A stretch of DNA of 64,000 nt, taken from the NCBI RefSeq assembly GCF_051622035.1, contig NC_135355.1, positions 4,898,001 to 4,962,000 of the forward strand, read 5' to 3'. Positions within the stretch are counted from its first letter, which is position 1. Each line of letters starts with the position of its first letter. Source of the DNA: Arctopsyche grandis. Its lineage: Eukaryota > Arthropoda > Insecta > Trichoptera > Hydropsychidae. This document shows positions 688-8,153 of the stretch, piece by piece. The notes under the pieces were generated by a model that had not been told where the DNA came from, did not search any database, and worked only from the letters and a program-made list of their open reading frames with translations. The position numbers were made by a program, and so were the translations under genes.

Positions 688-3600
688 ATGGACCGGTCAA
701 GAGTAAAAGTAAAGGCCACCGTGAGTACGACGACTAAATATCCTTGCAAAATCATCATTCAAAGTTCAACTCGCGTATAATATTATAATAATATGCGCAA
801 CGAAAGTGTTGCGTATGAAGTGTCTCCGTACTTTATGTGTGAAAGTGAAATTAAAACCACCTATTGGTTTATCGCTTTTTTCTCAGATCAATTTCCATTC
901 AAATTCGGTTAGAATTTAGACTGTAGTGCGTGTGCTGTTTTTCAATTAAATGGAAATAAGCTGACGAAGCCGGTTGTAGTTTTGTGACTGTTGTTTGAAT
1001 GTTAATAGGTTAACCTTTTATTCGATTTTTAAACATACTGTTTTTGAATAAACAAACACACAATTAACCATTCATATGTAAAATTATCAAGATTCTTCAA
1101 TAAAAAAAAAAATCCTTTCATAGAATCGTTACATAAATTGCAATTACATATAATTTGTAGCCTATACTATTATTTTGTTATTCACACATTCATTTCAAAC
1201 CACTTTATTTCTATCCACTTATTTTTATCACTAATCTGTAACTATTATATTAAGTGATTGCATAAGTTCATGCCCGTTTACCGATAAAATACCGATTCAA
1301 ATCGGGCATGAACTTATGAAACCTTTTTTATATATACGAATTTGGTCAGTTAATTTATTAGTTTGATAAGTAAATACTATTTTTGAATACATTAAAACTT
1401 CTGTTATATATATATATAAAATATAACTAGGAAATTACTTACGCTGTTATATACGTATGCATATTTATTTATATGAACATTAGTGATAGCATAATGCTAC
1501 TACCTATCAACTGGAATAACAATTTAATATATAATTTCGAATGAGACTTTGTATGTAACTATTCTTGGTTCGTAAATCCGTGACGTCATCGAACAAATTA
1601 ATATTCAAATAAATTTAAATAAAATAGAACTATTCGAATAAATTTAATAAAATGTTTACTATTAGATTGGTCATGTTTAAGCGGTTTATATTACAAAAAC
1701 ATTAGTTTATTATAATTAGTAAAATAATTATTTTAGAACTTATTTATCCGTTTCCATTTAAGTCTATAGGTATGTAAATTTTCAATAAGAAATAACTTAA
1801 TCGATTAATCGATATAGTGCATGATAGTTATGCATGTAAAAAGCTCTAACTAACATCTTTGATTGAAAATTAAATGTATGTATCTCTTTATCGATAAAAT
1901 TTACTTCATCATTAAAATGTGTTATTGATGTAATTGAACCTGCTTCGCAATTGCAATTTATTGAAAAATTATGCAATATGTAATTTCACTATGCGTTTTA
2001 TAATCATCGTTCGACAGTCACCGAACTACGACCTTTAGCACGCGCTGAATAATGTCGCAAATATGCAACTTAAATTACGATTTTTTTATTATTATCTCCA
2101 CTTATTTAATCAAAATGTCATCTTTAATTCGTTTCGTTTTATTTTTAGGTGATCATATTATTCGCACTCTGCGTAGAGGTCACTCCGAGAGCGCTCGAAG
2201 AATATGGCTGGACCCCGTTGGAAATAGTCACAGAACCTATACAAACTAGTCATGGAGGAACGTTCGAAGTTAAAAATCCCATCGTGGAGAATCTCTTGAT
2301 CAATGCAATCAAATCATCAGCGGCGATGATAAGCCAAATAGAAGGAATAAACAAGTACGCGATAATGTTGAATACGGCGAAAAAGAAGAAAGTCGATGTG
2401 CAATTGTTACCTGTAAATCGCAATATTCTTATCGAATCGCCCATCTTAGATCCTTCTACGATACACAATGAAGTTGAGAGCATTTTGAAAAAACGGCAAG
2501 AGAATAGCAAGAAGTTTATGGAGGCTTTCAAAAACACTAACAATACAACAGCGCACGAGTGTGATTGTAACAAAACCTTAAAAGCAAATGAAGACTTTTC
2601 CAATCACGGGTCTTTAGAACCAAATGTAATACACAAAAAAAACGACGATTTGTTCCAACTGCAACCAGAAGTAAGGGCTTTAAATGCATTCACTAAGTTG
2701 ACCGAATTCGAACAGAGTTATTCAGAACAAAATTCAGAAAACGCATCGTCAAACAAAGTCGAAAAATTCGTCGACAATTTGCCTCAAAAGGATACAAACG
2801 CTTCAATCTCAACAATTAATAATAAAAATAACGCTAGTCAAAATTCCAATATAGAAAACGGTGTTCAAAAAAGCAACGGCGTTTTAGTGAAAGTCAACAA
2901 AATTAATATTTCAAATAACAATAAAGCTCGCAGTGCAATAAAACAGACTGTAAAATCCGACATATCAACTTCGGCTACGAGAGAAGAGGAAAAAGAAAAT
3001 TATCCTGATCCGGCGCTGTTCATCAAGGCTGTTAAAACTGTTTCGCATAGATTTCAATCTCATAGTATTCCAGCATTCCTTTTAGAACAGGAAACGGAAA
3101 CCGAGACCGAAATACCGACGTCTACAATATTCGAAGAATCTGAAATTACGACTTTGAATCCTATCAAATCATCGAAAAGTCTAACCGCAAAAATAGGTGG
3201 GTTTTTAAGAGAAGATTCAAAAAATTCACAGTTCGATTTGGGCAATATTAAAATCGTATCGAGTGAAAACAAAAACGACAAAACTAGCAAAAAATTAGAA
3301 GATTCGAAACAAAGCGAATCTTCAACCAAAGGAGGTACTCTGAGAAAAGTAACTAAAGTCATCAAACAACCGATCAGAACTTTTGCGCAGTCTGTCAATA
3401 TAATCACCACTCCTTCTTCGAATTCCTACACAGAACAAATTTCTACTCAAACTAACGGTTTTGGAAGAACCTCTATTAGAATTCAATCGTCAACGATAAG
3501 TCCTGTCACGTACGTTAAAAGTTCAACGAAGAGCGCAAATCGAGAAGAGAATTCGAGACACAGTGTACACGCTGGATTTTTAAACATTTCCGATACAAAT

Positions 3601-6600: not shown

Positions 6601-8153
6601 AGTGGCAATTCTAGAATAACTACAAGGCCATATTTCAATCCTGGAGAAAGTGGTTTCGGTACTATAACGCAAGCAGGAAAATCTGCATCATCAGATAATG
6701 ATGATATAAATAAAAACGCATCATCGTCACTCGGCGCAAACGTACATCAGTATAACTTGGAATTGGGAAACAAACATAGAGGCGATGACTCCACGCAAAA
6801 TTTACACCAAAAAGACAATTCGACCGAAGCAGCCTCTCGATTGTCCAAGACCAAGGTTAATAGCAACAATGCGATTGGAATCGATGATTCAGTACTAATC
6901 AATGTACCATCTTCAATCGGAGGGGGAATCATAGCAGGTAGTGCAAACACCAGAAATGTCAACGGTCAATCAGGTTTTTCTTCGACAACTTTGAACTCAA
7001 TAGGATCTGCGAATTCCAACAGAAATGTATTACAAACAATCGACAGTACAATTAAATCGTACACAACGCAGAAGATTCCTAAATCTAACGGTGAAAATCT
7101 TCAAAATAAATTGAAAAGTACTGGCACAGAGAACACTGGGCTTTTGATCAACAATGGCTTGACAAGCAATACAAATGTGAGAGAAAATTCTTCGAGATAT
7201 AATTTATCGAATAAATCAACTTCTTCATCGCGGCAAATTCAACACAATAAAGATCAACAATCGTCTCTTGATTTACAACACGGAGCATCTTCCAATGATA
7301 AATTAGCCAGTAGCTTTGTTGCAGCTCACGGAGAACCATTTTCAATCTCCGACGACAAAGAAAGAGGTGCCAAAAAATTCATCCCGTCAAGGTTCGATAC
7401 GATATCTCCATTTTTGACGGATTCAAACATAAATAAATTATATGGAGATTCGCAAAAGCCTCGCTTTGAAAGCAACGGAAAGTCAAACACTATCGAATTT
7501 GATGATGGTAAATTGACAGTGGGACAGGAATATGGAAATAACGGCGTGGCAACAAGTACAAAAACCCAATACAGAGGAAGTGTTAAATATCATCCGTCTT
7601 ACGTCGATTGGAATTATGGCGACAATGATTTTCCATCACAATTCAGTTACAAGTAAATATTCCAACTCTAATTCATGCGTAAAATACTTAAATTATAACT
7701 CAATGATAATAACTATTATTTAATTCCAGCTATAATACACATACAGGAATATCAGCCTTTCAAAAAGGAACATTAAAGGAAATCAACAATCAAAAAGTAT
7801 TTGTAAGTTAATTGAATAAATATATATTATATTTAATTATATTTATTTTAGTACTATTTTAATTGACTTGTTATATTATTTTAGATTATAAGAGGTTCTT
7901 ATCAATATACGGCTCCTGATGGCAGTCCTATAGTTGTCAATTATACAGCAGATGAGAATGGCTTTCATCCAGAAGTACTTATCAATTTAATATATTTTTA
8001 AATATATACATAGAATATTGTTTAAAATCTTCATATAAATTTTAGGTGGTAACACCGTTACCAAATTACGAAAAGGAATTTAAACCAGAAGTAGCTCAAG
8101 AGTTTGACGAAACAACGGAAGAATTAGAAACGACGAACCTACAAGATGCATAA
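688..8153 (+). CDS. Giant RR-1 cuticular protein with long Asn/Ser/Gly repeat region (about 1,935 aa)
   Basis: Predicted secreted chitin-binding cuticle protein. Exons are 688-720, 2149-7652, 7730-7802, 7885-7974 and 8046-8153. All junctions are GT-AG and the joined frame is open to TAA. Exon 1 gives [11 protein letters not shown]; exon 2 continues with the hydrophobic VIILFALC stretch, which completes a signal peptide. Residues about 656-1376 hold roughly 15 tandem units of about 48 aa around a [15 protein letters not shown] core. A pair of similar 30-residue motifs ([11 protein letters not shown] near 580, [11 protein letters not shown] near 1753) flanks this array. The RR-1 domain is split over exons 2-5, from [13 protein letters not shown] through [11 protein letters not shown] to [10 protein letters not shown], at residues about 1842-1908. 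The protein is very poor in cysteine (a CDC near 149 is visible). Typical RR-1 proteins are 100-250 aa, so this one is roughly ten times normal size. It lacks the usual PTPPPIP tail and ends in an acidic segment. Orthology is unknown. The exon 1 assignment is the least certain part. Confidence 0.85.
1261..1318. repeat. Perfect 16-bp inverted repeat in intron 1 of gene 1
   Basis: CATAAGTTCATGCCCG at 1261-1276 is exactly complementary to 1303-1318, leaving a 26-nt loop that itself contains two CCGAT words. The rest of the 1.43-kb intron (721-2148) is AT-rich and shows nothing else I recognise. Confidence 0.8.
4080..6240 (+). repeat. In-frame tandem repeat array inside gene 1 (about 144-bp unit)
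   Basis: About 15 units encode a [16 protein letters not shown] ... [12 protein letters not shown] pattern. Seven central units (about 4680-5580) are nearly identical; those on either side are progressively diverged and have lost the exact spacing. The period is close to 144-147 bp. The array keeps other + frames partly open (for example 4604-4810, 4811-5167, 5312-5518), which are shadows. Confidence 0.9.

Follow-up and report, generated by a model that had tools for sequence, protein, structure and literature searches.

The 64,000-nt stretch of Arctopsyche grandis DNA analysed here (the window; assembly GCF_051622035.1, contig NC_135355.1, positions 4,898,001 to 4,962,000) contains, at positions 688..8153 of the forward strand, a predicted gene for a very large cuticular protein with an RR-1 domain at its C-terminus. 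We consider it probable that the gene encodes a single secreted CPR of the RR-1 type, which would be anchored to chitin and fill space, as a hydrophilic protein, in the matrix of soft cuticle; exon 2 of the gene is expanded. The five exons, all on the forward strand, join into a frame of 5808 nt and 1935 aa with a terminal stop only. Exon 1 (688..720) encodes the first half of a putative signal peptide, while exon 2 (2149..7652; 5504 nt, 1834 codons plus 2 nt) holds the remainder of the signal peptide, an N-terminal region, a repeat array, a post-repeat region and the F-S-Y of the R&R aromatic triad. Exon 3 (7730..7802) supplies the middle of the RR-1 domain, exon 4 (7885..7974) the core of the R&R consensus, and exon 5 (8046..8153) ends with NLQDA and the stop. 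All four introns start with GT and end with AG, and the frame is kept throughout; the five exons and the junctions 720/2149, 7652/7730, 7802/7885 and 7974/8046 that an earlier note on this DNA had proposed are all found in the sequence.

Exon 2 alone is open for 1835 codons, in a window with a G+C content of 31%. The longest open stretch in 200 mononucleotide shuffles of this exon had a mean of 91 codons and a maximum of 201, and the claim that the long exon is open throughout holds well against this background. The other five frames of the exon contain 53-160 stops, and G+C by codon position (37, 45 and 29%) follows the pattern expected of coding sequence. Downstream of exon 5, an AATAAA at 8296..8301 is a possible polyadenylation signal.

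The spliced C-terminus matches PF00379 with 65.3 bits (cut-off 25; E 6.2e-18) and contains the extended R&R consensus of ~64 residues, which bears out the in-phase splice to a C-terminal RR-1 domain described in the earlier note; a Pfam scan of exon 2 found no family at E<=1. An alignment to PDB 9l0p_A, which is named ‘Chitin binding protein’ (6.3e-10, query residues 7-77), spans all three junctions within the domain. The domain starts at 7642..7652 (F1843-S-Y-N/, phase-2 donor), and its aromatic triad, F1843-S-Y-N-Y, is complete only after exons 2 and 3 are joined: F, S and Y end exon 2, the N codon is split by the junction, and the last Y lies inside exon 3. This agrees with the triad rule given for CPRs in passages of a survey of Anopheles gambiae (Y/F-x-Y/F/W-x-Y/F at the start of the consensus; PMC2259329), according to which the Anopheles consensus nearly always starts near such a triad. 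The same source describes Cys and Met as almost absent from CPRs; here there are three Cys (two in the mature protein) and four Met in 1935 residues. Compared by eye with the RR-1 consensus given for Antheraea pernyi in part of PMC10138643, the first 26 positions fit with three changes (Y for F, F for Y and H for Q), and the GAHLP end is replaced. Scoring of 150 of 165 candidates gave at least 148 PF00379 matches in the genome, 19 of which lie inside a 260-kb stretch around the window; the RR-1 status of these cluster neighbours, like the non-RR-2 status of the domain itself, was judged by eye. The closest other locus in the genome is the next PF00379 match upstream, at C1:4889425 (43% over 60 aa), C1 being the contig of the window.

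The positions of the domain introns tie the giant exon to the exons that follow it. We compared the triad junction in all 19 PF00379 matches of the 260-kb stretch, 18 of which do not come from the giant gene. For intron 2, which lies in the triad in phase 2, a matching donor is present in six of these 18 (genomic positions 4761125, 4770887, 4776069, 4801553, 4926874 and 4929053); the six were chosen by eye, from a context like G-x-[YF]-x-[YF] or G-[YF]-x-[YF] before a phase-2 GT. At C1:4801553 the layout of the junction is the same as in the giant gene (-SYRY-AA|GTGAGT). Introns 3 and 4 were compared in 18 of the 19 matches, 4870794 being left out as an apparent further exon of the gene at 4869915; a GSY-type motif could be located in 16 of the 17 other matches, and likewise the stretch after the G-F/Y of ADENG. 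The intron 3 acceptor, 9 nt before GSY, has the same position in two of 16 (4789160 and 4804229), and the intron 4 donor, three codons past GF/GY, in three of 16 (4926954, 4935448 and 4977316), with a GT donor one base earlier in 4928800. Because each of the three domain introns has counterparts in paralogues, and because exon 2 carries the first half of the triad, we conclude that the giant exon and the RR-1 exons are one predicted gene. An accidental downstream RR-1 gene would not give such shared introns, and the one-gene claim of the earlier note is thus strengthened by the match in intron position and phase with neighbouring paralogues.

At the 5′ end, the predicted exon 1 is the sole ATG-to-GT, phase-0 candidate (3-93 nt, positions 200-2120) whose donor has at least 7/9 consensus matches. 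Its length of 33 nt is inside the range of 3-36 nt for the short first exon that, in the Anopheles survey, splits the signal peptide in 86% of An. gambiae CPR genes with introns (PMC2259329). The joined N-terminus of 26 residues is signal-peptide-like by eye only, and the figures for the mature protein assume cleavage after residue 26. The N-terminal region that follows (residues 27-160; 2194..2595) exceeds the remainder of exon 2 in hydrophobicity and falls on the ordered side of a charge-hydropathy plot. It possibly forms two helices, since an AlphaFold2 model contains two long ones, at low confidence (mean predicted local distance difference test score, pLDDT, 40.2). Cysteines 149 and 151 (HECDCNK), at the end of this region, are the sole ones in the mature protein. 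A genome-wide search with residues 1-212 returned the self-match only, and residues 27-195, scanned against viral contigs, gave three pattern matches and no relative.

The center of exon 2 is occupied by a repeat array of ~15 degenerate units of 40-50 residues (residues 677-1382; 4144..6261). Its units, of ~48 aa, are rich in Ser, Asn, Gly and Thr, and six of them are near-uniform, or homogenised (residues 866-1152, positions 4711-5571); Tandem Repeats Finder delimits an array at 4658-5576 with a 144-bp unit, 6.4 copies and 86% matches. When an idealised double unit was searched against the whole assembly, all ten matches fell within exon 2. The repeats evolve as protein, since mean nonsynonymous divergence (dN, 0.116) is below mean synonymous divergence (dS, 0.235) for the 10 pairs formed by five units, which are not independent. 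Because the core of the array is homogenised, its copy number probably differs between individuals. The array is flanked by two copies of a 24-residue motif, one before it (residues 576-599; 3841..3912) and one after it (residues 1749-1772; 7360..7431). Searched genome-wide (E<=10), the surroundings of the first copy matched these two places only, the second copy at E 4.8e-4, and a six-frame scan of the 260 kb found no further TISPF or [FYW][IVL]P[ST][KR][FY].

The calculated mature product has ~1909 residues, a mass of 204 kDa and an isoelectric point of ~9; 18% of the residues of the entire protein are charged, in near balance. The description of the extension as rich in Asn, Ser, Gly and Thr is supported. 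That of 1,800 disordered residues can be kept in part: residues 161-1835 are just inside the disordered side of the charge-hydropathy plot, and an AlphaFold2 model of three repeat units has no fold (mean pLDDT 30.5), while residues 27-160 must be excepted. Tyr and Pro are absent from the six homogenised units, and the 720 residues from 661 to 1380 contain 10 Tyr and 5 Pro.

Potential N-glycosylation sites (N-x-S/T) reach only ~40% of the expected number, despite the abundance of Asn and of Ser/Thr. The mature protein has 25, compared with 62.7 in shuffles (0 of 1000 as low). With the six homogenised units excluded, there are 22 sites (48.5 expected) and 41 copies of the reversed motif (48.3 expected). 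In the post-repeat part the corresponding figures are 6 vs 13.6 (9 of 1000 as low) and 12 vs 13.5, while residues 27-660 are not depleted (12 vs 13.9). Inside the array, the reversed motif is also low (19, with 37 expected), so that the shortage is in part a matter of repeat geometry. Taken as a whole, these counts are suggestive of avoidance of N-glycans.

In the function that we propose, the epidermis would secrete the protein and its C-terminal R&R domain would dock on chitin fibrils, as expected from the domain family: in passages of PMC4244043 and PMC10138643, the R&R domain is described as binding chitin, and RR-1 proteins are associated with soft, flexible cuticle. The remaining ~1,800 residues, a polar, near-neutral and largely unfolded chain, would fill and hydrate the space between fibrils, and could be regarded as an entropic brush or filler of soft cuticle. 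The chain may be joined to the matrix by Lys/Tyr/His cross-links, which would lie mostly outside the core repeats, or through the duplicated 24-residue motif as a docking site. As to its origin, an ordinary RR-1 gene of the cluster most likely had its exon 2 enlarged by internal tandem duplication, the central units of the array having been homogenised recently. The exon plan is the same as in ordinary neighbours, and in five of the six loci that share the triad donor, the frame before the donor extends at most 44-62 codons back to the previous stop (in the sixth, 4929053, it was measured up to 60 codons). Repeats within coding sequences, and concerted evolution between cuticle genes, are described for flies and mosquitoes in part of PMC2793513.

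A number of observations weigh against this interpretation. The gene model is predicted from genomic DNA alone, in one species, and the donor consensus is matched at 6/9 positions in intron 3 and at 5/9 in intron 4. These are also the points that would favor a decaying or unexpressed gene, which we regard as the least credible of the alternatives, given 1935 codons that contain neither a stop nor a frameshift and repeat units in which dN is below dS. Among the 18 other PF00379 matches, the triad is uninterrupted in three (4889410, 4916023 and 4921424), nine have no candidate donor or chance-looking ones only, and most are without any given shared intron. Chitin binding and the filler role are inferred. 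The AlphaFold2 alignments are shallow (five rows or one row), which makes low model confidence weak evidence of disorder, and the control for the sequon count is mixed, as the reversed motif is itself low over the mature protein (48 vs 62.6; 9 of 1000 as low). A further alternative is that there are two genes, a secreted repeat protein ending in FSYK-stop and a separate small RR-1 gene downstream, in phase with it by chance. If intron 2 is kept, an in-frame stop does follow exon 2 directly (FSYK*), and a neighboring 1020-aa repeat exon of the cluster ends in its own stop and has no RR domain. Exon 3, however, opens partway through the triad, which would lack its F-S-Y without exon 2, the phase-2 triad junction is common to six other loci, including C1:4801553 with the same layout, and exons 2 and 3 are only 77 nt apart; we consider two genes very improbable.

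The remaining alternatives retain the single gene and differ in what the long chain would do. Tyr and Pro are hallmarks of resilin-type rubber, and resilin combines an RR-2 domain with Gly/Pro/Tyr repeats. A resilin-like rubber, made up of disordered, cross-linked elastic chains, would agree with the architecture, in which a long chain of low complexity adjoins an R&R domain. This is not favored, because the homogenised units contain neither Tyr, which forms dityrosine links, nor Pro (the wider stretch 661-1380 has 10 and 5 of them, respectively), and the domain is RR-1 rather than RR-2 by eye; we rate this alternative as decidedly unlikely, and the suggestion in the earlier note that the protein is elastic is unsupported, as six homogenised repeats without Tyr and Pro are unlike resilin. 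Mucins have Pro/Thr/Ser-rich, heavily glycosylated tandem repeats, and a mucin-like glycoprotein, whether it belongs to the cuticle or lines, for example, the foregut or trachea, would account for the abundance of Ser and Thr and for the signal-peptide-like start, with O-glycosylation being possible. The array is Pro-poor, however, and N-x-S/T sites are few (25 vs ~63, with the reversed motif at 48 vs ~63); for these reasons we do not favor a mucin and consider it unlikely. The shortage of sites is put to a different use if the protein is a prion-like Asn/Ser/Gly chain, anchored to chitin and kept free of N-glycans, which would form a bare polar brush or hydrogel in soft cuticle, with the 24-residue motifs as docking sites on either side of an expandable array. 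This version is a tentative possibility to which we give some weight, although it is unlikely to be the correct one. If true, the N-glycan-free brush would be a structural class distinct from short CPRs and from resilin.

Returning to the space-filling matrix protein, its production as predicted would widen the range of sizes found for R&R proteins, and would show a chitin-binding module of small size bearing a chain over 20 times as long as itself. The effect of an unfolded, low-tyrosine and perhaps unglycosylated polymer on the hydration and stiffness of soft cuticle could also be studied here in a natural setting. Since the copy number of the array probably varies, the relation between length and mechanics might be read from natural variation.

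Within the 260-kb stretch there are five other frames of at least 250 aa: four mobile-element frames (Pao-type, two reverse transcriptases and hAT-like) and the 1020-aa repeat exon. The latter (C1:4794845-4797904, ~103 kb upstream of the window start) has a signal-peptide-like start and His/Asp-rich repeats (SQAFDINLHHDDS...HPDIVPVSHP). We considered it as a second giant RR-1 gene and rejected it on account of its own stop and lack of an R&R domain; its matches to DUF1062 and DUF7024, above the cut-off, were taken as repeat artefacts. The Pao-type retrotransposon frame (C1:4811309-4815805; 1499 aa, with Peptidase_A17, DUF1759 and integrase zinc-binding regions) is located inside the cluster. 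Two RR-1 exons at C1:4833480 and 4840210, 6.7 kb apart, have an identical reading from the domain to the stop, as in a recent tandem duplicate. In the window, a frame of repeated units at 14266-14739, ~3.1 kb upstream of an RR-1 exon at 17825-18223, is possibly the repeat exon of another RR-1 gene; it has no Pfam match at E 0.01. Two further frames in the window, 20931-21500 (reverse strand) and 47294-47794 (forward strand), resemble by eye the end of a retrotransposon reverse transcriptase, and have no Pfam match at E 0.01. Elsewhere in the assembly, a gloverin exon match is weak (32 bits) and would hint at Lepidoptera, while Chorion_1 and Lipoprotein_11 gave no match, in searches that had no positive control. 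Farther along the same contig, a COX1-like frame (C1:36084329-36085669) covers the full family model with 11 internal TGA, and would be either a nuclear mitochondrial copy or mitochondrial sequence assembled into C1.

In size, the protein is far from what is usual for the family. Mature CPRs of An. gambiae have a mean of 169 residues and a range of 87-837 in the passages of PMC2259329 that give lengths, so that the ~1909 residues here amount to 11-fold the mean and 2.3-fold the maximum; the earlier note's estimate of about ten times the usual size was close. Its statement that the domain is usually near the middle or end of the protein does not agree with the same source, in which the mean starting point of the An. 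gambiae consensus is 27% of the way along the mature protein. Here it starts at ~95% of the length, beyond the 4th-90th percentile range in An. gambiae (PMC2259329). Full-text searches of an open-access library named no giant RR-1 protein in their results, and similar gene models may well sit unremarked in annotated genomes. Large CPRs are also known in Drosophila. Among the other scored matches of the A. grandis genome, the longest domain-bearing open frames are those of C8:11485878 (777 aa) and C8:11464555 (505 aa); these lengths count the domain exon only, so that beyond the 260 kb any gene whose giant exon is a separate one would be missed. The two C8 loci resemble the giant gene in that an R&R domain and a long extension share one frame, and differ in that the domain is near the N-terminus, the extension comes after the domain, and the size is under half.

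Compared with known systems, the giant protein shares with resilin and pro-resilin a low-complexity, repetitive region joined to an R&R domain, and differs in having an RR-1 domain and core repeats free of Tyr and Pro, rather than an RR-2 domain with Gly/Pro/Tyr repeats. The polar Ser/Asn/Gly/Thr tandem repeats are like those of sericin-type Ser-rich silk proteins, but this likeness is by composition only, and here the repeats are joined to an R&R domain. With the RR-1 subgroup of CPRs it has in common the R&R domain, the triad, a putative split signal peptide, shared introns and a place in a tandem R&R cluster. The CPRs of An. gambiae are far shorter, and the giant has a near-terminal domain and tandem 48-aa polar repeats; it is an extreme variant of the known CPR family.

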